From a virus, in the IMG/VR virus record IMGVR_UViG_3300025137_000006, positions 1 to 36,383 of that record: a stretch of 36,383 bases of DNA. One strand, written 5' to 3'. Position numbers and translations under genes: made by a program. Shown here piece by piece: positions 9,622-35,506 of this stretch (position 1 is its first letter; every line of letters starts with the position of its first letter). The notes under the pieces were generated by a model, which did no database searches, was not told the DNA's origin, and saw only the letters and a list, made by a program, of their open reading frames with translations.

Positions 9622-11583
9622 ATGTCGCGATTTTCGTCATACGGTCAGGCTGACTCTCAAATGGTTGATGAGTTGGATTCTGGTTTTTTTGGTTTTAATA
9701 ATCGGTTTAGACCTGATCAATTAAATCCAGGAGTTCTTGCAGACAGTCAAAATGGTCGCATGGATCTTAATGGCGAATGGCAAGTTCGTAAAGGTATTGA
9801 TATTATAAGTGGATCTCTTTTGGTTCCTGGGATTGGGCTTACATTGCCTTTTACACTAGATGACACAGGAACATCTCCCGTACTAGTAGATATAGTTCCA
9901 AAAGTGGTAGCCTCTTGTGCCTATTCAAATCCTTTAGACACAACTGGTCAGTTTATTATTGTAGCAACAAATTCGGAAGCAGTTTTAGTCAATTTAGATC
10001 CTCTCGTGCTTACAACAACCTCAATAGCATACCCAGCAGGAGTAGAAATAACGGGCAAAGCATCTTTAACACAAGCCTTTAATAAAGTTATTTTATTCAG
10101 AAGGGGTCAAACTCCGTTAATTTGGGATGGGAATTCAGCTAATGATTTTGTAAAAGCAGAAAGCGGTGATTTTCAACAGCCAGAACAACTTGGTGATGCT
10201 GGGAATAATACCGTTATTCTTAATGGGCAAGTAACTGTAACATCTACTGCTCACGGATTAAATGAAAAAGATAAAATTGTTATTACAGAATCAAGTAGTG
10301 ATCTAGTTGTTGGAACTGTATATGATGTAGCAACTGTACCCAATGCAAATACTTTTACATTTTTTGCACAAATATCTGATTTAGCCGCAAGCAATAATTA
10401 TTACAGCAAACCAGTTTCTGAAGGCGTTGGGTATATTAGAATGCCAGCACCAGAATACGGCGTGTATCATTCAGAAAGATTAGCGGTTCCCTTTGAGTTT
10501 AACGTTGAAACTACTGTTGATACTTATACTGACAGAGGGACAAGAGATGAAATTATTTTTTCTAATGGTCAAAACATTGAAGCATACGATGATTTAAATG
10601 GAAAATTTAGACCCAATGCTGGAACCGCTGATTTTATTGTAGGACTGCATTCTTTTACTAAAGACACACTTATTGTTTTTATGAGAAACAGTATTCATGT
10701 TATTAGTGGCACAACATCACTTCCATCCGCTCAAGTAACTTTAATTACAAATGAAATAGGTTGTGTTTCTAGAGATAGTATTGTTCAGGTAGGTGAAAAC
10801 ATTATGTTTCTTTCTGACAATGGCGTTTATGGCGTATCATTCCAGGATTTATACAATCTTCGGGGAAACGAAGTTCCATTGAGCGAATCAATAGATGCTA
10901 CAATACAAGATATTAATAAAAATGCTTGGAGCAATTCTGTTGGCGTTTATTATGATAACAAATATTATTTAGCAGTTCCAATAGGAACGGGTGTAAATGT
11001 TAATAATAAAATTGTTATTTATAATTTCTTAAATAAACAATGGGAAAGTGTAGATAAAGTTGATGACACAGCTAATTTTGATTTTAATCGTTTAATTGTA
11101 GCTGGAGATGGTCTTACCCGTGGTGTTTACGCAATAAATACATTTGGAGGAGTTCACAAACTAGAAGCTCGCACTGATGGCGTAGATCTTATTACCTCCG
11201 ATCCTTCTACTGTTGGTCTTGTTGAAACTTATAATATTCCCGCTGAGATTACAACTCGGCAGTTTACGTTAAAAACTATTGACCGCAAAAAATGGAATTC
11301 TTTTGAAATTTCTACTCAATCATCTCCCGAAAGAAATTCTGATTTTACCATTTTAGCCGAAACAGAAAATATTGATTATAATTTAAATCTTGGAACTTTG
11401 TCTGAACGATTAGATGGCGATCCTTTATTACAAAATGAAGATGTTTCCATACGTGGTAGAATAGGTAATAGTCGTGCATACGGCATTCAATTCAACATTA
11501 ACAATATAGTAGGTAGACCCAGAATACGATCGTTGAAAGTAACTGGTGCTCAAGCCTTTAGATCAACTAACACAGCAATATAA
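9622..11583 (+). CDS. Tail tube/nozzle protein, beta-propeller-like (T7 gp12 / TTPB analogue)
   Basis: A 653-residue beta-rich protein located where podoviruses encode the tail nozzle. Repeating blade-like strands are visible (for example I-M-F-L-S-D-N-G-V-Y-G-V near residue 394, N-K-Y-Y-L-A-V-P near 450, K-I-V-I-Y-N-F-L-N-K-Q-W-E-S-V near 470). Residues about 194-258 form a separate module with the pattern A-H-G-L-x-x-x-D-K-I-V-I...T-V-Y-D-V...N-T-F-T-F, a small beta domain often embedded in phage tail proteins. The stop overlaps the next ATG by one base. Assigned by position and fold pattern rather than by close homology. Confidence 0.7.
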   Translation: MSRFSSYGQADSQMVDELDSGFFGFNNRFRPDQLNPGVLADSQNGRMDLNGEWQVRKGIDIISGSLLVPGIGLTLPFTLDDTGTSPVLVDIVPKVVASCAYSNPLDTTGQFIIVATNSEAVLVNLDPLVLTTTSIAYPAGVEITGKASLTQAFNKVILFRRGQTPLIWDGNSANDFVKAESGDFQQPEQLGDAGNNTVILNGQVTVTSTAHGLNEKDKIVITESSSDLVVGTVYDVATVPNANTFTFFAQISDLAASNNYYSKPVSEGVGYIRMPAPEYGVYHSERLAVPFEFNVETTVDTYTDRGTRDEIIFSNGQNIEAYDDLNGKFRPNAGTADFIVGLHSFTKDTLIVFMRNSIHVISGTTSLPSAQVTLITNEIGCVSRDSIVQVGENIMFLSDNGVYGVSFQDLYNLRGNEVPLSESIDATIQDINKNAWSNSVGVYYDNKYYLAVPIGTGVNVNNKIVIYNFLNKQWESVDKVDDTANFDFNRLIVAGDGLTRGVYAINTFGGVHKLEARTDGVDLITSDPSTVGLVETYNIPAEITTRQFTLKTIDRKKWNSFEISTQSSPERNSDFTILAETENIDYNLNLGTLSERLDGDPLLQNEDVSIRGRIGNSRAYGIQFNINNIVGRPRIRSLKVTGAQAFRSTNTAI

Positions 11584-12512
11584 TGGCAATTTTATCTGTA
11601 AATACTCCTTATGTAGATGGAGGCACAGTTACATCTACAAATTTAAATGCACTTGTAACTAATGCTGCTTTTGTTTCTGGTTCAACAGATGGTGTTACGA
11701 CGGAACTTTCTAGTGGAGCTATTATTGTTAAAGATGGCGGTCTTGGTCTAAACAAGCTTAACACAAGTGTGCAAGCTAAATTGTTACAAGGTCTTGAAAT
11801 AGAAGCTAATGGTGAATCAATTATTGGTGGAACTAAAGCTGGAGATCAAAGAGGAACCTTTGCTCTTGATATACAAAACAAAGAACTTACTACTTCCGCA
11901 AACAGAGTAGCAAGTGGCGATTCCGCAGTTGCTTTCGGTTTTTCAAACATGGCTTCTGGGAATAATTCTTCTGCCGTTGGAAGTACTAATCAAGCAACAG
12001 CATTGTATTCTTCTACTTTTGGATATAATAATAGTGCCTCAGGTCAAAGTTCCGTTGCAATTGGAGACAATAATGGTGCCTCAGGTGAAAGTTCTGTTGC
12101 AATTGGAGACAATAATAGTGCATCTTCAAACCGTACTATTGCATTGGGTTACGGTAATTCTGCAACCTCAAGTAACTCATCTGCGATTGGGTCAAGTTGC
12201 AGTGTTAGCGGTACAGAATCTCATGCTTTTGGATCTGATGTTGCAATATCGTCTCCGTATAGTGTTGAAGTTGGTGTATGGTCAACTAGCTCAGTCAGAG
12301 ACTCTGCCGTAAAAATTACTAAAGACGGAGGTGTAGCTTTAACGTGCGAAAACAGTGCTACTGCTCCCTCCGATAATTCTACCCCTGGAAATGAAGACAT
12401 TGGAGAATTAGGAAGAAGTATGTTTACTATACAAAGAGATGGCGACGATTTTACTTTATATTTTAACGACGCTGGTACAATTAAAAGTGTTTCTTTAGGA
12501 ACCGTAACTTAA
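11583..12512 (+). CDS. Tail fibre with YadA/Hep_Hag-type repeats
   Basis: A 309-residue adhesin-like protein. After an N-terminal segment that probably attaches to the tail (V-D-G-G-T-V-T-S-T-N-L-N-A-L), residues about 107-225 carry repeated 14-residue units of the form A-[SVT]-G-x-x-S-x-A-[IVF]-G-x-x-N-x, for example S-G-E-S-S-V-A-I-G-D-N-N. These match the left-handed beta-roll repeats of trimeric autotransporter heads (YadA, Hep_Hag). The C-terminus (F-T-I-Q-R-D-G-D-D-F-T-L-Y-F-N-D-A-G) is a beta end cap. Predicted role: receptor binding. The near-identical S-S-V-A-I-G-D-N-N repeats suggest recent expansion. Confidence 0.8.
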   Translation: MAILSVNTPYVDGGTVTSTNLNALVTNAAFVSGSTDGVTTELSSGAIIVKDGGLGLNKLNTSVQAKLLQGLEIEANGESIIGGTKAGDQRGTFALDIQNKELTTSANRVASGDSAVAFGFSNMASGNNSSAVGSTNQATALYSSTFGYNNSASGQSSVAIGDNNGASGESSVAIGDNNSASSNRTIALGYGNSATSSNSSAIGSSCSVSGTESHAFGSDVAISSPYSVEVGVWSTSSVRDSAVKITKDGGVALTCENSATAPSDNSTPGNEDIGELGRSMFTIQRDGDDFTLYFNDAGTIKSVSLGTVT

Positions 12513-12550: not shown

Positions 12551-13369
12551 ATGATTATATCTCATAAAAATAAATTTACAGTATTAAGGGTTCCTAAAAC
12601 TGGAAGTACTAGTTTAGAGGCTTCTGTTCGTTTTTGTGGAGCTGTTCATGAAAATGATATTTGTTCTGAAACAGAAGATGCTTTTTTGCCAATTCAAAAC
12701 ATTCCTGAAACAGCAAAAGAACAATGCCGAAAACACGCTCTTATACTAGATATAATAGAGAAAAAAACAAAAAATAATTTAGAATTTAGTGAACAAGAAA
12801 AAGCATTAAAAAAGTGGAAAAGAAAATGGATAATTTTCATGGAACATAATACTCTAGATGATTGGTTTGAGGTTCCTTATTTTTCAAAATTAAATTTAAT
12901 TTCTAAAGAACAAGTTTTAGAATATAAACATTATGGTTTTATGCGTGATCCAATAAAAAGATACTTAAGTTCTTTTGTATTTCATCAGGGTTGTGCAAGT
13001 ATGTTTAAAAAACAAAACAGACCTATTACAATTGAATCATTCCAGGAGTTTACCTTAAAAGAACTTAAAAAACATCGTAATATTTTGTTTAGACCCCAAA
13101 AAGATTATTTTTATTTTGAAGGAAAACAAATCGCGGAACCACTTTTGTTTGACAATTGGGCTTTTGAGGCTTCTAGAATGATCAAAGAAATAGGATTTAA
13201 TCCATTGTCGGTTTATCCAAGATTTAAAGAAAAAGGAGGATTCCCAAATAAGACAAGAAATATAAAACCTTCGGTGGAAGAATGGGTGGACTCATGTGCT
13301 AAAATAAAAGATTATTTGCAGGAGCATTTTTTTGAAGATATAGAATTTTACCAAAGATACAAAAAATAA
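12551..13369 (+). CDS. Sulfotransferase-like protein 1
   Basis: A 272-residue protein with the two PAPS-binding signatures of sulfotransferases. The 5'-phosphosulfate loop is V-P-K-T-G-S-T-S-L (14-22). The 3'-phosphate site is R132-D-P-I-K-R-Y-L-S140-S-F. A His at 99 (F-M-E-H-N) could serve as the general base. Such enzymes move sulfate from PAPS to hydroxyls of sugars, lipids or protein tyrosines; the acceptor cannot be read from the sequence. The gene is more A+T-rich than the structural genes around it and looks like an inserted cargo gene. It ends 1 base before the giant repeat protein, so the two are probably translated together. A relative lies at 34219-34884. Confidence 0.82.
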   Translation: MIISHKNKFTVLRVPKTGSTSLEASVRFCGAVHENDICSETEDAFLPIQNIPETAKEQCRKHALILDIIEKKTKNNLEFSEQEKALKKWKRKWIIFMEHNTLDDWFEVPYFSKLNLISKEQVLEYKHYGFMRDPIKRYLSSFVFHQGCASMFKKQNRPITIESFQEFTLKELKKHRNILFRPQKDYFYFEGKQIAEPLLFDNWAFEASRMIKEIGFNPLSVYPRFKEKGGFPNKTRNIKPSVEEWVDSCAKIKDYLQEHFFEDIEFYQRYKK

Positions 13370-13370
13370 A

Positions 13371-16300
13371 ATGGGTTATACAAGTAGTAATTATACAACT
13401 TACGGCGGGGGCGGTGGCTACGGCGGTTATTACGGGTACGGCGGTAACGGTTATAAGACAGGTTATGCGGGTGATGGTAGTTTTTATGACGGAGTTGATT
13501 ACGTTATGGACGAATTCATGGTTTATGGCAATAACGATGGTTTTGGTAATTACGTTGATTTTGGTTATTTTGGGGATTTCTTTTCTCAAGATAGTTTTTA
13601 CAATGGCTACACTCTTCAATCTTACAGCGATGGTAGTGATGAGGTTGATTATTCCGATAATGACAGTTCAATTTATAGCGTATTTCGCCATCCTGACGCA
13701 ATGGAAGGCTCGTCCTGGAGGCAAAACAAACTTCCTCCTATTCAGAAAAAACGACAAAACGTAATGGATGGCACGCTTATGCGTGCTTTGATTCAAGGAG
13801 AAGGTAAGCAGTTTATACAAACAGTCTATGACGGTATAAAAGATCATCATCAAACCGATCCTAATTCTTTTGCGGCTAATACATGGCTTGCTCCAAATGG
13901 AAAAACATATGAACTTCCTCCTGCCAGCGAAGATGCTATAGGTACGGAAAACGAATTTGCTTCTCGTATTCAAAATTTTGTTGGTTCTTTTGACTACTTA
14001 AGGATGTATAATAGAAATGTTGCCCAGCGTCCTGAAGGAATGGGTGAAGATGGTGTTTTTGCAGGTTTTGTAGGAGAAAATCTTGATAGTAATAGTTATC
14101 AAGAATTTTTAAATTCGTCTAAATATTTTCCTCAAGTCTTAAATCAAGCTGGAGAAACTATATCTCGCGATGGCACAATTATTAGTTATCCTGATGGCTC
14201 TACCTTTAATGTTGATTTTGGCGATGTTACTAATTTTACTCCAGGAAATGCTAGCGGATTTGATGCAAACCAATTAAGTTTTGAAACAGATCCTAGTGCT
14301 CTTTCTGGTCAATACAGCAGATTTTACAATGGTTTTATAGATCAACACATAGAAAATTGGAGATTAGGAAATGATTGGACTACTTTAAGTATTGGATATG
14401 ACGGAAGTATTTATGGTGAAAATGGATACGACCAAAACGGTTATAACAGACAAGGACATGACAATGCAGGGTATGATAGAGATGGTTTTCATTACGAAGG
14501 ATACAATCAAAATGGATTAGACGCTAGTGGTGAAATTTGGCGTGATGAAGAGGGATACGATGTTCAAGGATATGATATTAGTGGATTTGATATACAAGGT
14601 CTTGACGTTAATAATCGTGATGTTAATGGATACGATTTAGATGGACGTGATTTTCTGGGTTATGATCGCGATGGATACGATGGAGGAGGACGCGATGCCT
14701 TAGGTTATGATCGTGCGGGTTTTGACAACACTGGATATAATGAGGACGGATATGATATAAATGGTTTAGACCGTTTAGGATTTAATGCCGATGGTTTTAA
14801 CCAAGGTGGTTTCAACTCAGGTGGTTTTAATACTGATGGATTTAACGAATCGGGTTTTAACGAATTAGGTTTCAATCTTGAAGGTTATAATGCAGGTGGT
14901 TTTGATTCTTTTGGTTATGATCTTGAAGGATACGATCAAGGGGGACGCGATGTATTAGGTTATGACCGTGACGGATATGATGTTTACGGATATAATGAAG
15001 ACGGATATAATTCCAATGGCTATGATAATTTAGGATTTAACGAACAGGGACTCAATGACATGGGATATAATTCCGATGGCTTTGATACTGATGGATATAA
15101 TTTAACTGGTTTTAATTCAGACGGTTACAATATTGACGGGTACAACCAAGGTGGTTATAATCCCGATGGTTACGATTCGGATGGATATAACGCTCAGGGT
15201 TTTAATGCTGAAGGTTATGACCGCGAAGGTTATGCAGAAAACGGCTTTAATAGCGATGGATATAATCGCCAAGGTTTTGATGCTGATGGATACAATGCCG
15301 ACGGTTTTAATGCTGATGGTTACAATGTTAACAATTTTGACAGGCTTGGATACAATTCCGAAGGCTTTAACAGTTTAGGATATAATTCCGACGGATTTGA
15401 TAAAGACGGATTTAATGCCGATGGTTTTAATGCTGATGGTTATAACAAAAATGGATATAATTCGGACGGATATAATTCTGACGGGTACAATCAAGGTGGA
15501 TATAATTCTGACGGTTTTAATAGCGATGGATATAATGCCTTAGGTTTTAATCCCGAAGGATATAATTCTGAAGGTTATGACAATTTAGGATATAATTCCA
15601 ACGGATTTAACTCTAGTGGTTTTAATGCTGATGGTTATAACAGCCAGGGATTTAATAATTTAGGTTATAACTCTAGTGGTTATGATTCTTTTGGTTATGA
15701 TTCCGAAGGATACGACCCGCAAGGAAGAGATTTATTAGGTTATGATGTTGAAGGGTACGATTCTTTTGGTTATGATTCCGAAGGATATGACAAACAAGGA
15801 TACGACAACTTAGGTTTTAATAGCAATGGATATAATGCCTCAGGTTTTGATTCTGAAGGATATACTCCTGAAGGTTATGACGATTTAGGTTACGATCTTG
15901 AAGGTTTTGATAGTTTAGGATTTGATAACACTGGATATAATATTCTTGGTTTTGACAATTTAGGATACGACAAAGACGGGTTTAATGATCTTGGTTTGGA
16001 CGACGATGGCTACGATTTAGATGGATTTAATTCTGCTGGTTTTAATTCAGACGGTCTAGACGAATTAGGTTTTAACATATACGGTTTTAACGAAAACGGT
16101 TTGAACATTGATGGTTATAACATTCAGGGTTATAATAGTGATGGTTTTAACATTGACGGATATAATGCTTCTGGATACAACGAACAGGGATTTAATGTTG
16201 ACGGATTTAATCCTGCTGGATTAGATGCTGAAGGATATAACCAAAACGGAGTTCGTCCCGATCCTGATGGTTATTGGTACACTAAGGATGGAGAAGTTGA

Positions 16301-19300
16301 CAATACATACAATGGTCAAGTTGATCCTTCTCTTGGAGGAAGTTATACGGATGCTAATGGCGTGGTTCAAGAGATCACTCCAGAAATCTATTCAGTTGCT
16401 GATCCTACTAGTCCAGTTGGAACTGGTGGTGGTAATGGCATTGATCCTAGTATAGATCCTGGCAATGTTCTTGATGATCCAGGTGGTGCTGGTGGTGCTG
16501 GTGGTGGTGATAATACGGGTGGTGGTGGTAGTGCCGAACCAGGCACATCTACTAATACAGGGACTCACACAATTGATTGGAATAAATTGCAAGAAATATC
16601 ATCCCGATATTTAGGAACTCGCAGACATTACAATGACTTCTTAAGAACCCAAGCGGGACAACAAGCCGCTACAAGTGTTGGTGACTTGTTAAATAAATAT
16701 ATGTCACCCTCGGAGGATGATCCATTAACAAGATCCGATGAGTTTATTAATAAAGTATTAAACATAGCAACTGCAAATGGTTTTCAGGGTTTGGATGCTT
16801 TTGCTTTATCAGTTAATTTATTAGAAGGAATTGTTAATACAGATTTGTTAGATGTTCCAAATATGGGATTTTTAATTAACAATATATTTCAATCCGCAGT
16901 TCCAGAAAATGTTATAAATCTACTAGAAGAAATTACTCCAGACTTCATGGAGAAAATGACTGGTTTGGATAATTTATTCCAAAACGGAAATTTACCTACT
17001 GATTATTTAGGTCAAAATTTTAATCTAAAACAATATTTGCTGGCTGACCTTGGTATGGCTAGTGAAGTTAATTATGGTCTTTTACCTGCTACTGAAAACA
17101 TTCAACAGCAACAAATTGATTTTGTAACTGAACTATTAGGACCAAATGTAGCCCCAGGATTTCTTGCGGACAATGATGTCACTGATTTAGATTTCTTTAA
17201 AAAGGCAATTGATTTAGCTGAAGACGGCGGATTAGGCGATGAATTTAATGAATTAGTTTCTCAAATTAACAACATTTATGTTGGGCAAGGCGGTGAGTAT
17301 ATAATGACTCAAGAGCAATTTGACGAATGGGAAGCCGCCTTAGGGGAGGAACCAAGCTTGTGGAACAAATTGACTACATTGACTGCGGACGGATTTGGTA
17401 CTTTGCTTCAACCCTTTGAGGGTATTGGAAATCTCATGGAAAGCATGGGTTTTTACCAGCAATATTACATGGGCGGGGCTTTGCCCACTATGGGTCTAAA
17501 TTTCTTAGGTGCCGCCGCAATGGGAGGTTTTCCTTTTACGGGCACATTGCTTAATGTATTAGGAGACGCATTGGCTCCTTCTGGACAAGAACTATCTGAT
17601 TGGCTTCAAGAAAGAGGCATTGATGCACATACCGCTACCGTTGCAGATATTAGTGCATGGTTAAATGAAAGTGATGTTAATTACAATACTATTCCTCCCT
17701 TTGATCCAATAACTGGAGAATTTGGAACAAGATGGAACGGTAGCTCCTCTACTGTAGATGATCTTGTAAGCGGTATAGATTTAACTGGTCCAACCCCAGA
17801 AGTAAATCTTGGAGGTGACAATACCCTAGTCACGGATTTAACCACTCCAACCCCAGAAGTAAATCTTGGAGGTGACAATACTTTAGTTACAGATTTAACT
17901 GATAATTTTAATTTTGATACAGATAATGATGGACTCTTTGATACATTTATATCAAATCTTGCTGATTTTGCGGGGGATAATACTTTAACATCTCAATTAA
18001 TTAACGGCGACCTTAGCATTACAGATGGTATATTAACGGTAGTTGATAATACAATAAGCGGCATCGTGGGCGATGGCGGTGGCACTGGCGGTGATGTCGT
18101 TGGCGGCGGCGGCGGTGGCGAAACTGTTGGCGGTGGCGAGGGTGGCATAAATCCCGTCCCAGAAGTCTTTCCGCCCAATCCAGAGATTGACGGCGGTGAT
18201 AATATAAATCCAGATCCTACGCCAGAAACAGGAACAAACCCAGGAACTATGCCAGAAACAACCACACCAGGAGCACCAGGATTAGGCGATGAATATGACA
18301 TTGGCTATGAGACGGCAAAATATTTAATTGGAGCAGAAGCCGCAGAACGGTTTAGAGGTCTAGGCATGGACAATGAGGAGTTAATGGCTCTTGTTGACAG
18401 TTATTCCTCCAGGGTGTCTCAGGATGAACTCGCTCGTTTAATTGAATTAAATCGTGGCGAACAAGCTGGAATTAACGAACTCCGCGATGTACAAAAAGCT
18501 TCCGACCTTGAGTTAATTGGTGATTACGGAACGCAATACGCCGATGCAATTCGGAGTCTTGATCCTACTTCAATGTCCATTTTGGGTGATCAAAAAGCCT
18601 TAAGCGATAGATTATACCGAAGAGCGGCTGGTGATTTAACTGCTGAAGAACAAACGGATGCCGAAGAGAGAGCTTTTGAAATAGCCGCTATGAGCGGAAG
18701 GACATTGGATTCTACACGAGTTGCTAATACTATAAGATCCGAAGAAGACTTTAGAACTGGTTTAGAAAATCGTGCACAACAAGCTGGAAGCCTTGGTTAC
18801 AATATGTCTAGAAATATTACGGGAGATATTCCTGGAATGCTTCTTGGCACGGGAGGTTCGCCTTATGGAACTGGAGTTGGGCAGGTTGTTCCACCTATGG
18901 GTATTGGTGACGCAATTTCCGCAGGGGTTAATTCTTACGCACAACAGCAAAACATACAAAAGGCAGAAGCACAGATTGCACAACTTCAACAATCACAAGC
19001 CGCCGCTGAAGCTAGTGGTGATTTAACTTCCGCCGAAAGATTTGCTAATACTATCTTAGAAATTCAACAAACTTTAAACATTGCAAATGCAACAATGGGA
19101 GTAATAGGGAATATTCCTGACACGATAAGTAATACTATGGATGCGGGTCGCAGTCTTCTTAACTATGGCTCTCAGGCAGTCAGTGGAATTACGAATTTCC
19201 TTACTGGAGGAAGCAGATCAACTCCTTCTGCTCAAACATTTGTTCCTGGTTCTAGTTTTAATGTTCCTTCAAGCACTTGGGTAAATAGCAGATATGAAGC

Positions 19301-19334
19301 TCCAACAAGTTTTGGTGGTATTACTTTTCCTTAA
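13371..19334 (+). CDS. Giant 1987-residue virion protein with 120 G-[YF]-[DN]-x-x pentapeptides
   Basis: This gene takes about 16% of the genome. Visible regions: (1) residues 1-100, Gly/Tyr/Asp-rich low complexity; (2) about 105-340, mixed, globular-looking; (3) 352-959, pentapeptides in strict register apart from one eight-residue unit (G-E-I-W-R-D-E-E); (4) about 960-1060, acidic then poly-Gly linker; (5) about 1065-1640, helical/mixed, with a hydrophobic stretch near 1373-1404, a duplicated 19-residue unit near 1475-1510 and another Gly linker near 1565-1590; (6) about 1645-1980, a helical domain with S-D-R-L-Y-R-R-A-A-G-D-L-T, which I know from podovirus virion proteins, and a Gln/Ala coiled coil near 1865-1885. 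It precedes two other large proteins, as internal/ejection proteins do. A fibre or ejected protein are both possible. Confidence 0.78.
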   Translation: MGYTSSNYTTYGGGGGYGGYYGYGGNGYKTGYAGDGSFYDGVDYVMDEFMVYGNNDGFGNYVDFGYFGDFFSQDSFYNGYTLQSYSDGSDEVDYSDNDSSIYSVFRHPDAMEGSSWRQNKLPPIQKKRQNVMDGTLMRALIQGEGKQFIQTVYDGIKDHHQTDPNSFAANTWLAPNGKTYELPPASEDAIGTENEFASRIQNFVGSFDYLRMYNRNVAQRPEGMGEDGVFAGFVGENLDSNSYQEFLNSSKYFPQVLNQAGETISRDGTIISYPDGSTFNVDFGDVTNFTPGNASGFDANQLSFETDPSALSGQYSRFYNGFIDQHIENWRLGNDWTTLSIGYDGSIYGENGYDQNGYNRQGHDNAGYDRDGFHYEGYNQNGLDASGEIWRDEEGYDVQGYDISGFDIQGLDVNNRDVNGYDLDGRDFLGYDRDGYDGGGRDALGYDRAGFDNTGYNEDGYDINGLDRLGFNADGFNQGGFNSGGFNTDGFNESGFNELGFNLEGYNAGGFDSFGYDLEGYDQGGRDVLGYDRDGYDVYGYNEDGYNSNGYDNLGFNEQGLNDMGYNSDGFDTDGYNLTGFNSDGYNIDGYNQGGYNPDGYDSDGYNAQGFNAEGYDREGYAENGFNSDGYNRQGFDADGYNADGFNADGYNVNNFDRLGYNSEGFNSLGYNSDGFDKDGFNADGFNADGYNKNGYNSDGYNSDGYNQGGYNSDGFNSDGYNALGFNPEGYNSEGYDNLGYNSNGFNSSGFNADGYNSQGFNNLGYNSSGYDSFGYDSEGYDPQGRDLLGYDVEGYDSFGYDSEGYDKQGYDNLGFNSNGYNASGFDSEGYTPEGYDDLGYDLEGFDSLGFDNTGYNILGFDNLGYDKDGFNDLGLDDDGYDLDGFNSAGFNSDGLDELGFNIYGFNENGLNIDGYNIQGYNSDGFNIDGYNASGYNEQGFNVDGFNPAGLDAEGYNQNGVRPDPDGYWYTKDGEVDNTYNGQVDPSLGGSYTDANGVVQEITPEIYSVADPTSPVGTGGGNGIDPSIDPGNVLDDPGGAGGAGGGDNTGGGGSAEPGTSTNTGTHTIDWNKLQEISSRYLGTRRHYNDFLRTQAGQQAATSVGDLLNKYMSPSEDDPLTRSDEFINKVLNIATANGFQGLDAFALSVNLLEGIVNTDLLDVPNMGFLINNIFQSAVPENVINLLEEITPDFMEKMTGLDNLFQNGNLPTDYLGQNFNLKQYLLADLGMASEVNYGLLPATENIQQQQIDFVTELLGPNVAPGFLADNDVTDLDFFKKAIDLAEDGGLGDEFNELVSQINNIYVGQGGEYIMTQEQFDEWEAALGEEPSLWNKLTTLTADGFGTLLQPFEGIGNLMESMGFYQQYYMGGALPTMGLNFLGAAAMGGFPFTGTLLNVLGDALAPSGQELSDWLQERGIDAHTATVADISAWLNESDVNYNTIPPFDPITGEFGTRWNGSSSTVDDLVSGIDLTGPTPEVNLGGDNTLVTDLTTPTPEVNLGGDNTLVTDLTDNFNFDTDNDGLFDTFISNLADFAGDNTLTSQLINGDLSITDGILTVVDNTISGIVGDGGGTGGDVVGGGGGGETVGGGEGGINPVPEVFPPNPEIDGGDNINPDPTPETGTNPGTMPETTTPGAPGLGDEYDIGYETAKYLIGAEAAERFRGLGMDNEELMALVDSYSSRVSQDELARLIELNRGEQAGINELRDVQKASDLELIGDYGTQYADAIRSLDPTSMSILGDQKALSDRLYRRAAGDLTAEEQTDAEERAFEIAAMSGRTLDSTRVANTIRSEEDFRTGLENRAQQAGSLGYNMSRNITGDIPGMLLGTGGSPYGTGVGQVVPPMGIGDAISAGVNSYAQQQNIQKAEAQIAQLQQSQAAAEASGDLTSAERFANTILEIQQTLNIANATMGVIGNIPDTISNTMDAGRSLLNYGSQAVSGITNFLTGGSRSTPSAQTFVPGSSFNVPSSTWVNSRYEAPTSFGGITFP
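14424..16247 (+). repeat. 1.8-kb array of 15-bp (pentapeptide) repeats
   Basis: From GGATAC at 14424 to 16247 the coding sequence repeats every 15 bases as GG(A/T)-TA(T/C) or TT(T/C)-(A/G)A(T/C)-NNN-NNN. I count 120 units of five residues plus one of eight, with no other break. Position 2 is mostly Tyr or Phe (sometimes Leu, Arg), position 3 Asp or Asn, position 5 often Asp, Glu, Gln, Gly or Leu. Codons vary between units (GGA/GGT, TAT/TAC), so DNA identity is much lower than protein identity. Longer units recur, such as the pair beginning near 15684 and 15759 (G-Y-D-S-F-G-Y-D-S-E-G-Y-D). Confidence 0.95.
17790..17900 (+). repeat. 57-bp tandem duplication within the giant gene
   Basis: The segment starting CCAACCCCAGAAGTAAATCT at 17790 recurs at 17847. 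It encodes two copies of a 19-residue unit (P-T-P-E-V-N-L-G-G-D-N-T-L-V-T-D-L-T). The copies differ by a few silent changes. Confidence 0.9.
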
Positions 19335-30517: not shown

Positions 30518-30994
30518 TTACTTAAGCACGTAAGTCCTGTCTCTCTCGTGCCCTCGGTAAGTGTCCCAAAGCTCCGCGTCATAGCCAAGCTCTCGGTTTT
30601 GGATGAAGTAGACCCAAGCATAAGTCGTGCTCCAGTCGTGCATTGATACGGGGATCACTTGGCGTTTGTAGAAGTCAGGGTTGCCCTCTAGGCAGTCCAA
30701 CTGCTGGAAGGTTTCGGGGGTTACGTCGTAAACCTCCAAGGTTACTTGCTCGCCTTCGCCCTCCATGTCGTGCAAATAGGGTAGCCCCTCAACCTCAAGT
30801 GGGTAGGCACTTTTTGTTTTGCCTGTCCCTATGAACTCGGAAGTCTCTAGCAAGCGGTGGTTTGAGTAGCCAGCCTTCAGGGTTCCATAAACGGCTACCC
30901 TGCGTTTCCTGTCTTCGGGGAAGCAGTTGGCTTTGGAATAAAAGATGCCGTCCCGTCTATGCCATTCTCCGAACTTGGAGACCCTACCCGTCAA
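30518..30994 (-). CDS. Gamma-glutamylcyclotransferase-like (AIG2/YtfP) domain, downstream half of an interrupted fusion
   Basis: Residues 33-140 carry the GGCT/AIG2 signature: V-A-V-Y-G-T-L-K-A-G-Y-S-N (33-45), a G-E-Q-V-T-L-E-V-Y-D-V strand (81-91) and L-D-C-L-E-G (99-104). Known members cleave gamma-glutamyl amides to 5-oxoproline. The first ~30 residues (S-K-F-G-E-W-H-R-R-D-G-I-F-Y-S) are not GGCT; they resemble the end of the GAT-II-like phage protein encoded just upstream. That frame is open and in phase back to the TGA at 31045-31043, and the only start between TGA and the GGCT core is a TTG (30994) without a ribosome-binding site. So this is either made by read-through or is the remnant of a 290-residue fusion. 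A terminator follows. Confidence 0.82.
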   Translation of the reverse strand: MTGRVSKFGEWHRRDGIFYSKANCFPEDRKRRVAVYGTLKAGYSNHRLLETSEFIGTGKTKSAYPLEVEGLPYLHDMEGEGEQVTLEVYDVTPETFQQLDCLEGNPDFYKRQVIPVSMHDWSTTYAWVYFIQNRELGYDAELWDTYRGHERDRTYVLK

Positions 30995-31042
30995 AGTATC
31001 TATAAGAGCAAATCGGGTTTCGGTTAGCTCTAAGAATTTCTT

Positions 31043-31399
31043 TCATTGGTTCGGCTGTATTCTTGGCAATACATTGTCAGCGATATCCGCAACGTCGCTC
31101 TGTGTGTCTGATCCGTAGCCGTCAACCGTGCCGTTACTATATATAACTGTGCGGTTGTCCACGTTGAATGGATGAACGTTGTTCATGTCAACGGCTCCAA
31201 CGGTCGCAAATCTAAAGTGAGCAACGATTGGTCGGTTCGTGTTTAGAATCCTGTTGACACTTGTATAGTCAAGGGTTCTGCGAGTCTTCCCGCTGTCTAA
31301 GTAGGTTACCCCGAAGCCGTGCGGGTTAATTACCTTTGCCCGCTCTATTATGTTTCGGGGAATTCTTTTGCCTTCTGGTTTATGTATGATTATACACAT
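31043..31399 (-). CDS. Class II glutamine amidotransferase-like domain (stops early)
   Basis: A 118-residue N-terminal-nucleophile domain. C2 would be the nucleophile after Met removal (M-C-I-I-I-H-K). The expected later motifs follow: N-P-H-G-F-G-V (25-31), H-F-R-F-A-T-V-G (61-68), N-V-H-P-F (74-78) and S-N89-G90-T, the oxyanion pair. Class II domains release ammonia from glutamine for an amide-forming partner; the amidoligase-like gene is next door. AAGGAAA precedes the ATG. The product is short for the family and ends at TGA (31045-31043). The next codon continues in phase into sequence (E-T-R-F-A-L-I-D, then G-R-V-S-K-F-G-E-W) that looks like its missing end. Confidence 0.8.
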   Translation of the reverse strand: MCIIIHKPEGKRIPRNIIERAKVINPHGFGVTYLDSGKTRRTLDYTSVNRILNTNRPIVAHFRFATVGAVDMNNVHPFNVDNRTVIYSNGTVDGYGSDTQSDVADIADNVLPRIQPNQ

Positions 31400-31427
31400 T
31401 TTGTTTCCTTTCGTTTTGTTTGTGTTG

Positions 31428-31730
31428 TTATGCTAAGTCAGTTATATGTTGCCAAGCGTCCTCGTCAATAGCTTCGTCCCCGAGGTAAGGCTCCCAGTTC
31501 TTCTGGCTGTATCTTTTCTTAGCTCCGAATACATCGGCAATTCCGTTTAAGCGTTCCCGTGTTGTTGGCGTATTCCATCCAGCCAAAGTCATCAGTAAGG
31601 CTCCGTCTTCTATCTTGGCAATCTTGTTACCGTGAAGGAAAACCTCGCCGTTGATCGTTGCGGTGTTGCCCTTGTTTACATCTTGGCGGGCGAACAGTGC
31701 ATTTGCTATTTCTTTAGTAATCTTTCGCAT
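31428..31730 (-). CDS. Conserved small phage protein, unknown
   Basis: A 100-residue protein starting M-R-K-I-T-K-E-I-A-N-A-L-F-A-R-Q-D, with N-T-A-T-I-N-G-E-V-F-L-H-G-N-K-I-A-K and G-W-N-T-P-T-T-R-E-R-L-N-G. I know this plan (a short helix, a G-x-x-x-L-H-G-N strand and a T-R-E-R-L-N end) from many phages as an unassigned early protein. It lies 28 bases upstream of the GAT-II-like gene in the same direction, so it shares that unit. Confidence 0.72.
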   Translation of the reverse strand: MRKITKEIANALFARQDVNKGNTATINGEVFLHGNKIAKIEDGALLMTLAGWNTPTTRERLNGIADVFGAKKRYSQKNWEPYLGDEAIDEDAWQHITDLA

Positions 31731-32049
31731 TTTGTATCTTTCTTTTTTGGTTATGTGACAGGCAGTTATTCCGCTTATCTGTTATCAATAAAAACTATCT
31801 CTTTATATGTGTCAAATGTTTTTTGCATTTTTTATTTCATTAATAGATACAGTGCAGTGACTTGCAAAAGTGGCTACCCCCATTTCTCGTTCGGCTCAAA
31901 AAGTGGCTACCCCCTAGACAGCCAGCACGCCAGCCATCCCCGAAAAGTGGCTACCCCCCTAGAATCCACAGAAAGCCCCCTGGAAGCCCCGCGGATCATT
32001 CCCCCCTAGCCCTACCCCTAGAAACGGCTACCCCCTAGCAACAGGGCAC
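31731..32049. repeat. Non-coding region with iteron-like direct repeats
   Basis: No gene on either strand. Four same-orientation copies of (A)AAAGTGGCTACCCCC or its shorter form begin at about 31866, 31900, 31944 and 32022, with a fifth partial at 32081 beyond the hairpin. Several are followed by CTAG, giving repeated CCCCTAG (about 31912, 31957, 32002, 32014, 32032). The left part (31731-31860) is A+T-rich. Direct repeats beside an A+T-rich stretch fit an iteron-type origin, but also a cluster of protein sites. Confidence 0.7.
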
Positions 32050-32072
32050 AAAAAAACCCCGCCGAAGCGGGG
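32050..32072 (-). terminator. Terminator after the amidoligase gene
   Basis: On the minus strand CCCCGC-TTCG-GCGGGG, six perfect pairs with a stable UUCG loop, then TTTTTTT (32056-32050). It lies 20 bases past the amidoligase stop. Confidence 0.92.
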
Positions 32073-32092
32073 CTTTCGTTAACGGCTACCCG

Positions 32093-32971
32093 TCACGCCG
32101 TGCGTAAAACGGATTGCAATACGGGGGCATCATTCCCGAATCCGAAGTGATGCATGCGTTCTATTACATGTTGAATAACGGGGCGGAATTCGGCGTGCAC
32201 TGGTTTGATTGTGCCGTCAATGTTCGCCGTTGCTACCTTTAGAGCAATAAGCACGTTGTGCATTGGATTTTGATATGATTCCGTGCGGGGAATCTTTAAT
32301 CTACATCTTTCGGTCGTAGCTTGGCATAAAGCAATCCAACAAACGATTTTGCCGAAGTCTAGACTGCCCTGATGCTGGCGGAATTCAATAGTGCCGTGCT
32401 TGGCAAACGCCGTCAAGTTGACATTACGGTAGCGAAACTCTCCCCCCGTTCTAACCCGCCCCGAATCTTGGCAAATCGCCGTGTTTAACATAGAACGCAT
32501 TGAGCGGGAATAGGGCGAATCGCCCCGCCGTGATGGGGCAAGCATCTTATCAATGGCTTGCTCGCTCTTAACGGCGTGATTTACTACATACTGCAAACGC
32601 TTAGGCGTGTAGCCTTTAGCGTCACAATGCACATGAAGCCCGCATGTTTTCTTTACCTTTACGCCGTTGCGTTCTAGCACTTCCAACACCTTGAACAGTT
32701 GCTTGAATAGTTGAGCGGGTTGCAATGGCGGGCTAACATATTCACGCCCTACATAACCCCGTGGGGCGTTGCTATTGAGTGAGCAGTCAGTAATGCCTTT
32801 CCAGTGACGGCGGGTTGATGTATTCCAGTTTTCCCGTTGATAGGGCACGACCGCATTCAACTCTCTGTTGATTAGACTCTCTCTATCTTCGGGTATGTAG
32901 CATTCAATCTCTAGCCCGATCGTCTTAGGCTTCATTGTGAACGCTATTTCTTGTGCTGTTTCGTTATTCAT
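32093..32971 (-). CDS. Amidoligase-family enzyme (glutamine synthetase-like COOH-NH2 ligase)
   Basis: A 292-residue protein with the ordered motifs of the amidoligase_2 family: G-L-E-I-E (19-23), D-C-S-L (62-65), E77-Y-V-S-P (77-81), C-G-L-H-V-H-C-D (110-117), R-Y-R-N-V-N-L (180-186) and G-T-I-E-F-R-Q-H-Q-G (193-202). The acidic and His residues match metal/ATP ligands of the glutamine synthetase fold. The family is predicted to join a carboxyl group to an amine. Comparative genomics by Aravind and colleagues linked it in phages to class II amidotransferase and GGCT/AIG2 domains; both are the next genes in this direction except for one small ORF. The substrate is unknown. It is transcribed leftward from the 32.97-33.45 kb control region. 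Confidence 0.9.
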   Translation of the reverse strand: MNNETAQEIAFTMKPKTIGLEIECYIPEDRESLINRELNAVVPYQRENWNTSTRRHWKGITDCSLNSNAPRGYVGREYVSPPLQPAQLFKQLFKVLEVLERNGVKVKKTCGLHVHCDAKGYTPKRLQYVVNHAVKSEQAIDKMLAPSRRGDSPYSRSMRSMLNTAICQDSGRVRTGGEFRYRNVNLTAFAKHGTIEFRQHQGSLDFGKIVCWIALCQATTERCRLKIPRTESYQNPMHNVLIALKVATANIDGTIKPVHAEFRPVIQHVIERMHHFGFGNDAPVLQSVLRTA

Positions 32972-34039: not shown

Positions 34040-34226
34040 TAAGCTAAAAGAGATACTTGGGGAACATTATCCTAATTACTGCATTATTGTGCTGGATGAA
34101 GAAGGAGAAGTCCAATCCGAATACACAACAGTTTCAGTAGCTAGAATGCTTATTAGAGAAGCTTCGCTAGATTTTAGAGATGACAACGTAGAAGTTATAT
34201 GGGATATAGACGATACCGATGATTAA
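34020..34226 (+). CDS. Small acidic protein, unknown
   Basis: A 68-residue, highly acidic protein with an AGGAGG ribosome-binding site (34011-34016), overlapping terS by 20 bases and the sulfotransferase-like gene by 8. It starts M-D-E-E-I-L-D-K-L-K-E-I-L-G-E-H-Y, has a Y-C-I-I-V-L-D-E-E-G-E strand pair and ends in D-I-D-D-T-D-D. The tight overlaps link it to both neighbours. Function unknown. Confidence 0.65.
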   Translation: MDEEILDKLKEILGEHYPNYCIIVLDEEGEVQSEYTTVSVARMLIREASLDFRDDNVEVIWDIDDTDD

Positions 34227-34884
34227 CCATAAAGACAAAAAACTAATATTATTGCCGCCCAAAACAGGCACTTCTTCTTTGGAAAGTTTGTTTACAAAGA
34301 ATTTTTGTGGATACAGTGCGTATACCCGATACCACCCATTAAGGCACATTCATATGTATCTTGATGAATCTATTTTTGCTTACGGAATAAAAGATATAGA
34401 AAACTGGGAAATATATCAAACAGCAAGAAATCCTATGGATCGGATTATTTCTGCATTCTTGCATCAAAAATTTATATTACGAGAATTAGGCAAAAAAATG
34501 AAAATCCTAGAGTTTGAAGATTTTGTAGAAACGGTAAATCAACATCATCATTTATTGCCAGAAAAAGAAAGAACTTTCTCTAGTTCAGTATTATGCAATG
34601 ATAAAATAATTCCCTCCAACAATAAATGTTCGGCAGGAGTTCGGTTTTATGTTCCGCAAACAACCTGGGCTGATCCTAGCAAATATAATGTAAAGTACAT
34701 TAAATTAGGACAAGATAATTCTAAATTATATGCAGAAATGGGTTTGCCGTCAAATTTAAAATTACCGCATTTAAACAAAAGCAGATTAGACAAATCTCGC
34801 CATCAAAATATACATACTTATAGAACAAAAGAAATTATACAATCATTATATAAAAATGATTTTTTAAAACTAAATTATGAATAA
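34219..34884 (+). CDS. Sulfotransferase-like protein 2
   Basis: A 221-residue relative of the protein at 12551-13369, but shorter. The 5'-phosphosulfate loop is L-P-P-K-T-G-T-S-S-L (12-21). The 3'-phosphate site is T-A-R70-N-P-M-D-R-I-I-S78-A-F-L. A His-rich segment follows the loop (Y-H-P-L-R-H-I-H-M-Y, 38-47). The acceptor is unknown. It starts 8 bases inside the previous gene and ends 8 bases inside the hydroxylase-like gene, so the three are translated as a block. The DNA is strongly A+T-rich toward its end, in contrast to terS, suggesting acquired cargo placed between terS and terL. Confidence 0.8.
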   Translation: MINHKDKKLILLPPKTGTSSLESLFTKNFCGYSAYTRYHPLRHIHMYLDESIFAYGIKDIENWEIYQTARNPMDRIISAFLHQKFILRELGKKMKILEFEDFVETVNQHHHLLPEKERTFSSSVLCNDKIIPSNNKCSAGVRFYVPQTTWADPSKYNVKYIKLGQDNSKLYAEMGLPSNLKLPHLNKSRLDKSRHQNIHTYRTKEIIQSLYKNDFLKLNYE

Positions 34885-35506
34885 TCAAAAAATGAATAAA
34901 CCTAATTCAACATTAGCAGATATAAAAAGACGGTTACCTTTTAAAATTCAAGAAATTGGCAGTTATGATTCTGCCGACCTTCTTCGTAGATTGGAAAAAA
35001 TGGATCCTGAATGCTGGTTAGAAGAATCATGGAGGCAAAAAACATTTAAAGCTCACTCAAGTACGGATGCTTTAAACATTATGTGGAACAAGGAATGCCT
35101 AAAAGACAACACTAAGGGCGAAAAACATAAAAAAAATTACAATTTTTTAAATTTTGATAAAGTCCTTGAAGATTTAAAACCAATATATGAAAAAAAATTT
35201 GGCTCAGGAGATTTTCACCGAGTATTAATTACGCGACTAAAGCCAAAATCTAGTATAGCCGTTCATGCTGATCAAGGCATTGCTTTAATGCAAGGGCGAC
35301 GAACTCATATTCCTTTAACAACTAACAAGGACATTGTTTTTAAATGTGGACAAGATTTACAATCGTTTCATTTAGAAGTTGGCAATGTATATGAGTTAAA
35401 TAACGCTAAAAAACACGCAGTAAGTAACCCAACAGATGAACATAGAATTCATTTAATCATTGATTGGCTACAAAATAAAGGATTTTGGGAAAAAATGAAT
35501 GATTAA
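34877..35506 (+). CDS. Aspartyl/asparaginyl beta-hydroxylase-like 2-oxoglutarate oxygenase
   Basis: A 209-residue Fe(II)/2-oxoglutarate-dependent dioxygenase. Residues in order: H130-A-D132 (first iron ligands), R142-T-H144-I-P-L, H180-A-V-x-N (third iron ligand) and R190-I-H-L-I-I-D-W (2-oxoglutarate arginine and end strand). This fits the Asp/Asn beta-hydroxylase family, whose best-known member hydroxylates Asp/Asn in EGF-like domains; other members act on small molecules, so the substrate is open. It overlaps the sulfotransferase-like gene and terL by 8 bases each and is A+T-rich like the former. Together they look like a two-enzyme modification insert. Confidence 0.85.
   Translation: MNNQKMNKPNSTLADIKRRLPFKIQEIGSYDSADLLRRLEKMDPECWLEESWRQKTFKAHSSTDALNIMWNKECLKDNTKGEKHKKNYNFLNFDKVLEDLKPIYEKKFGSGDFHRVLITRLKPKSSIAVHADQGIALMQGRRTHIPLTTNKDIVFKCGQDLQSFHLEVGNVYELNNAKKHAVSNPTDEHRIHLIIDWLQNKGFWEKMND

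Follow-up and report, generated by a model that had tools for sequence, protein, structure and literature searches.

A PF03567 sulfotransferase gene in a recurrent position before giant ejection-type phage genes, and its candidate substrates

Heparan sulfate 2-O-sulfotransferase (HS2ST, family PF03567) is a described counterpart of the enzyme considered here, which is encoded between a tail-fibre-like gene and the gene for a giant virion protein in the virus record IMGVR_UViG_3300025137_000006 (the whole record, 36,383 bases, was analysed and is called the window). Both have the same 3'-phosphoadenosine 5'-phosphosulfate (PAPS) loop, Arg/Ser motif for the 3'-phosphate and catalytic His, and one of two structure comparisons also places their folds together; the window enzyme differs in being phage-encoded, in sharing 14% identity in the structural alignment and in having no known heparan-like substrate. 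PHROG 3347, 'Galactose-3-O-sulfotransferase', belongs to the same superfamily and is matched weakly by the window enzyme (E 0.0021) and better by a second copy in the genome (2e-10). A search of 50,697 phage records with the window enzyme gave nothing at E up to 0.01. The tyrosylprotein sulfotransferases (TPSTs) and RaxST, which with RaxX is described as a bacterial case of tyrosine sulfation, fall outside the Pfam family of the window enzyme. A second enzyme type carried by relatives of the window, here ST3, does match TPST1 by profile, though without an equivalent of its Glu100. For the giant, comparison can be made with the Decapeptide repeat PF25296, whose curated cut-off its repeat array exceeds but from which the array differs in its five-residue unit and in being part of an ejection-type protein. 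In Phage C75C1, a giant of 2769 residues follows the fibre gene as in the window, but has no array, and no sulfotransferase was matched genome-wide.

We establish the family, active-site residues and recurrent position of the window enzyme. Their best explanation, which we hold tentatively and just short of calling probable, is that of a carbohydrate-type (HS2ST-like), PAPS-dependent O-sulfotransferase in a variable fibre/ejection cassette, with the array as a separate module of the giant and not a dedicated substrate. The features that carry the argument are as follows.

9622-11583, plus strand: upstream structural protein; PHROG head/tail matches (best E 8.2e-10); conserved, and the anchor for finding relatives
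11583-12512, plus strand: tail-fibre-like protein with YadA-head repeats; C-terminal part highly variable
12551-13369, plus strand: sulfotransferase of 272 residues, PF03567, HS2ST-like; PAPS loop 14-22, catalytic-type His99, R132/S140 3'-phosphate motif
13371-19334, plus strand: giant virion/ejection-type protein of 1987 residues; weak PHROG pilot-protein match (E 0.0098)
13371-13685, plus strand: N-terminal stretch of the giant, residues 1-105, acidic and aromatic
14553-16247, plus strand: pentad array of the giant, residues 395-959; 113 in-phase pentads, mostly G-[Y/F]-[D/N]-x-x
16620-16955, plus strand: core domain conserved across the giant family, residues 1084-1195
18504-18983, plus strand: conserved C-terminal segment of the giant; in more distant relatives, separate genes of 300-473 residues at the same place match it

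The product of 12551-13369 matched PF03567 (Sulfotransfer_2) above the curated cut-off (26.3 bits against 22), with relatives scoring slightly higher (L002, 29.7; L005, 27.3). A PAPS loop at residues 14-22 and a motif at R132/S140 had been read by the first-pass annotation, and both were borne out. Residues 14-22 are V-P-K-T-G-S-T-S-L, the 5' PAPS loop, and K16, R132, P134 and S140 were invariant in all 15 aligned sequences of this type (ST2). Searched against the PDB as a profile, these 15 rows placed HS2ST on top (E 3.9e-7 and 2e-6); no TPST occurred among the 21 matches at E up to 10, and such absence from a ranked list is no exclusion. His99 was present in 14 of 14 rows having a residue there and aligned with the catalytic His of HS2ST, which we take to be number 142. 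Mutation of this His to Ala left less than 1% of HS2ST activity, according to PMC6094399.

The predicted structure of the window enzyme (predicted local distance difference test score, pLDDT, 87.8) was compared with known folds, as the first-pass annotation had proposed, and the two programs disagreed. With VIA-align, rows 1-12 of 50 were heparan 2-O-, 6-O- and 3-O-sulfotransferases (Z 10.5-9.5), led by 4ndz_C (Z 10.5, root-mean-square deviation 3.4 over 190 aligned residues), 5t03_B (10.2) and 7scd_A (10.0); the first SULT scored 9.2. TPST was absent from the rows shown, which we do not count as evidence for a different fold. Foldseek instead gave SULT-type enzymes at ranks 1-26 (E 0.03-0.26, none below 0.001) and a heparan 6-O-sulfotransferase at rank 27. 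These model comparisons are suggestive of a glycan-type fold but leave it undecided. In a viral structure library, phage and giant-virus proteins labelled 'sulfotransferase family' led the matches, five of them at E below 0.001. Bacterial relatives had a glycosyltransferase or O-antigen ligase no more than two genes away at four of the eight loci examined (from 22 found; 10 neighbouring proteins scanned).

Several observations besides the Foldseek ranking weigh against this explanation. The PF03567 score lies low, near its cut-off, and nine of the 15 rows in the wide profile are only 17-24% identical. Neither the window enzyme alone nor a five-row profile of its close relatives found a sulfotransferase in the PDB, so the likeness to HS2ST rests on the wider family. 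A His base serves SULTs as well, and their acceptors include phenols, so His99 leaves Tyr possible as an acceptor. The bacterial relatives match the window enzyme in part only (E 1e-6 to 3e-4), and Pfam scans of window proteins, covering part of the open reading frames, revealed no glycosyltransferase. The cassette borders described below come from a small number of pairs, and adjacent genes are carried along with one another simply through their position.

The one-base gap between the sulfotransferase and giant genes was confirmed, and the linkage of the pair that the first-pass annotation had pointed out proved to recur. Relatives were collected through the enzyme, the giant, the upstream structural protein (best 80 of 469 relatives used) and the second enzyme family; where tail genes were identical in their last 300 bases, a single locus was listed, and L003 and L004 (same gene set) and L037 and L129 (one contig) were each counted once. 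Eight distinct giants had a sulfotransferase directly upstream, at a spacing of -1 to +6 nucleotides, and on this count we regard the linkage as real. The slot held ST2 alone in the window and L005, ST3 (PF13469/PF00685) followed by ST2 in L002, L003, L008 and L011, and ST3 alone, immediately before the giant, in L037 and L110. Four further loci with ST3 in the slot (L012, L027, L028 and L035) were left out of the eight, as their giant lies off the contig. No sulfotransferase occupied the slot in L030, L034, L039-L042, L046, L047 or C75C1. Searches with PF03567, PF13469, PF00685 and the A6 profile found none anywhere in the complete C75C1 genome and none in the slot or elsewhere in the 38.9-kb record of L101. 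These two absences are firmer than those in L030 (4.8 kb) and L034 (6.0 kb), fragments for which absence applies to the locus and contig only.

Comparison of the window with L008 delimited the variable region. The fibre C-terminus, the enzyme and the giant N-terminus were strongly different, between flanks 94% and 92% identical in DNA, which shows the three as one variable block. Protein identities between L008 and L011 suggested that the enzyme travels only with the giant N-terminus. This idea was rejected: the DNA of these two aligns as a continuous 5.7-kb tract (84.9%) that begins in the tail gene and reaches the start of the array, and so gives no special tie between enzyme and N-terminus. 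Within the giant, the variable part seems to be replaced wholesale between relatives; in L003 and L005 it is Ala/Gln/Glu-rich and, by eye, coiled-coil-like, and in L002 it is strongly acidic. Apparent frameshifts split the giant into two overlapping open reading frames in L008 (L008:4997-10823) and L005 (L005:7170-16245).

We propose how a glycan-directed enzyme may function. The cassette would comprise the C-terminal end of the fibre, one or two sulfotransferases and the N-terminal region of the ejection-type giant, and the enzyme would be expressed together with the tail genes. No terminator-like site was found from the fibre through the sulfotransferase to the giant, which is in keeping with one transcription unit for the three. 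A glycan is the predicted substrate. It would most likely belong to the surface of the host cell, where its alteration would block binding by progeny and rival phages. A glycan carried on adhesion parts of the virion may be the target instead. The pentad array would be a separate structural module.

A different explanation, unlikely although by no means far-fetched, would make the enzyme a moron gene unrelated to its neighbours, one that acts on a small molecule or lipid of the host and simply tolerates its place in the gap between two modules. Marine phages of various kinds carry sulfotransferases of a function termed unclear in PMC10580990. On the tree of the upstream tail protein, the enzyme label needs five changes, four of them forced by well-supported branches. 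L030 and L034 nest within enzyme-bearing phages with modest support (82/81), and their placement suggests loss of the enzyme there. A second sulfotransferase copy elsewhere in the window genome and the small-molecule SULTs that Foldseek ranked nearest among solved structures would also fit a free-standing gene. Such a gene would, however, not be expected to sit in the same slot directly before the giant in all eight cases, nor would two enzyme families be expected to use that slot.

The giant itself could be the substrate through its acidic, aromatic N-terminus, with Tyr sulfated by the TPST-like ST3 in relatives and by the HS2ST-like enzyme in the window, which has no ST3. We consider this distinctly unlikely. 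In its favour, a 14-row ST3 profile found protein-tyrosine sulfotransferase 1 first in the PDB (E 9.3e-9), and in L037 and L110 the ST3 gene lies right next to that of the giant. However, polyketide-type sulfotransferases followed closely (E 9e-8), a 3-row ST3 profile gave no clear match (TPST1 E 0.7), and the position of the catalytic Glu100 of TPST1 is taken by Thr33 in 14 of 14 ST3 sequences. The window slot, moreover, holds only the sugar-type enzyme. To our knowledge, virus-encoded tyrosine sulfation of a virion protein has no earlier case, and none of phage tyrosine sulfation was among the literature matches listed.

The architecture of the giants bears on the same idea. The core domain starts at residues 6-76 in L039, L041, L042, L046 and L047, which form one clade and have no upstream sulfotransferase gene. 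In seven enzyme-linked giants, by contrast, it starts at residues 384-2101, and in the split giant of L008 about 1060 residues precede it, counting both reading frames together. An extension of 383-2100 residues thus precedes the core in all eight enzyme-linked giants, so that a long N-terminus goes with the enzyme. In seven of the eight it is richer in Tyr than the rest of the giant (core percentages for L005 refer to its first reading frame only), and D-Y sites with an upstream acid are present. For example, window Y94 follows D93 in a D-Y-S...Y-S-V-F-R-H motif common to L008 and L011. However, Tyr-bearing acidic N-terminal extensions also occur as exceptions without the enzyme, in C75C1 (412 residues, by a weak match) and in L030, L034 and L101, where the core was not located.

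Charge offers a further argument of this kind. The first 80 residues hold 9-21 Asp/Glu in the eight enzyme-linked giants, compared with 36, 43 and 31 in L030, L034 and L101, whose giants have no upstream enzyme gene, as if encoded charge replaced sulfate. Replacement of sulfate by acidic residues is a possible reading of these sequences, resting on two lineages. We do not adopt it as a main interpretation because C75C1 (16 Asp/Glu) does not fit and L030 and L034 are sisters, and thus one lineage; the start of the L101 giant, in addition, was chosen by us. In its most elaborate form, the ST3 and ST2 tandem would sulfate clustered Tyr in the acidic, aromatic N-terminus of an ejection protein, and the resulting polyanionic leader would serve in crossing the tail or outer membrane, with lineages whose locus lacks the enzymes (L030, L034, L101) encoding the charge as Asp/Glu. 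This version is improbable.

A short motif resembling L-P-[DE]-F-x-V-x-[GA] also lies in the N-terminal stretch (residues 46-53 of the window giant). It recurs in the giants of C75C1, L003, L005, L008, L011, L030, L034, L101 and L110, with eight occurrences in C75C1 against 0.5 expected in shuffles, and none in the giants of L002, L037, L041, L042 and L046. The motif is reminiscent of a TonB box.

Modification of the adjacent tail fibre, and not of the giant or host, is a poor prospect. The fibre gene lies immediately upstream, and in other phages four of nine ST3-type loci examined neighbour a PHROG tail or virion-structural match. The fibre C-terminus varies together with the enzyme, but so would any neighbours.

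The remaining candidate is the pentad array, which the first-pass annotation had proposed as a target of tyrosine sulfation. A Tyr/Asp repeat array is indeed present: its 113 pentads run in a single unbroken phase, 111 starting with Gly and 98 strictly fitting G-[Y/F]-[D/N], and the giant exceeds the Pfam cut-offs of PF05287 (PMG, 68.4 bits against 29) and PF25296 (52.4 against 45). The fundamental unit of the repeat is five residues, with no clear ten-residue alternation. The claim of dozens of DGYD or EGYD sites was too high, exact counts being 5 DGYD and 8 EGYD (13 together), alongside 15 DGYN and 4 EGYN. The array was modelled with little assigned secondary structure at a pLDDT of 95.4, on which we do not lean because repeats, here overlapping rows of one array in the alignment, can inflate such scores. 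A Foldseek search of the array against the PDB returned no chain at E up to 10, which we do not take to indicate a new fold.

Array and enzyme came apart in both directions. A single regular expression for pentads matched 102 times in the window, 113 in L008, 18 in L011 and 4 in L110, and not at all in L002, L003, L005 and L037, which make up half of the eight enzyme-linked giants. Conversely, L030 has five pentads, and no sulfotransferase gene lies in the 64-base gap that separates its fibre from its giant. Screening viral contigs with a DNA pattern for the repeat turned up 23 stretches. One was L008 and the other 22 lay in 21 records, many of them fragments, none of which matched PF03567, PF13469, PF00685 or the A6 profile. 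A repeat without a sulfotransferase, which the first-pass annotation had named as evidence against its proposal, was thus found in part, in L030 and in these 21 records. Some repeat-bearing frames (L144, L146, L150 and L157, with GYDxx repeats) also hold an amidoligase-like G-x-E-I-E-M stretch, by pattern match only.

Alignment of the window and L008 arrays allowed each Tyr to be followed. Five of the six gaps were multiples of five residues, and the sixth, of 32, sits where L008 departs from the pentad pattern. Among 99 array columns with Tyr in at least one sequence, 64 had Tyr in both, 23 paired Tyr with Phe, 6 paired it with Leu and 6 were of other kinds; past the array, Tyr was kept in 24 of 24 columns. 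As array Tyr exchanges with Phe, loss of the hydroxyl appears to be tolerated there. The flanking residues give a mixed picture: Asp is frequent at +1 of array Tyr, as is Asp or Glu at -2, but none of the 74 has an acidic residue at -1. PMC5562738 states that human TPST substrates are helped by an acidic +1 residue, that human TPST1 needs an acidic -1 for strong binding (a peptide with Ala there was used 633-fold less efficiently), and that TPST sites are expected to be flexible; the array, by contrast, models as ordered, perhaps with an inflated score.

Despite the adjacency of the two genes, the 64 shared Tyr columns and the acidic +1 and -2 residues, sulfation of array Tyr by an enzyme of sugar-type likeness is hardly credible, and we set it aside on the Tyr/Phe exchange, the -1 residues and the distribution. 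The first-pass interpretation as a whole is therefore partly supported: the enzyme and its linkage to the giant stand, and tyrosine sulfation of the array is unlikely.

The wider genome provides the setting for this locus. The window ends share a 99-base direct repeat, and one reading frame exits one end and resumes at the other; the genome is taken as complete. This frame is a presumed terminase, read by eye, and its part at 22-867 had no Pfam or PHROG match. Plus-strand genes run from lysozyme and capsid through the structural protein, fibre, sulfotransferase and giant to two more large proteins. Phage C75C1 (OQ984151), with 59% identity in the capsid protein, was the nearest phage located in GenBank. 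Ahead of the presumed terminase frame, at 34219-35506, the following genes may form a second two-enzyme modification unit.

34219-34884, plus strand: the other PF03567 sulfotransferase encoded by the genome (25 bits)
34877-35506, plus strand: aspartyl/asparaginyl beta-hydroxylase family protein, PF05118 (48.5 bits); overlaps the second sulfotransferase gene by 8 nucleotides

On the minus strand, 30518-32971 holds a cluster of Amidoligase_2 (PF12224), a gamma-glutamyl cyclotransferase-like protein (PF06094) and a weak glutamine amidotransferase-like match. C75C1, too, carries genes annotated as amidoligase and cyclotransferase.

The role of phage sulfotransferases is described as unclear in PMC10580990, and the locus described here provides a recurrent setting in which to view them. 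One slot between fibre and giant is occupied by two enzyme families, one sugar-type and the other TPST-like. The recurrence of this slot narrows the candidate substrates to a host surface glycan, the fibre and the giant N-terminus, and the most eye-catching candidate, the Tyr/Asp array, is made unlikely.

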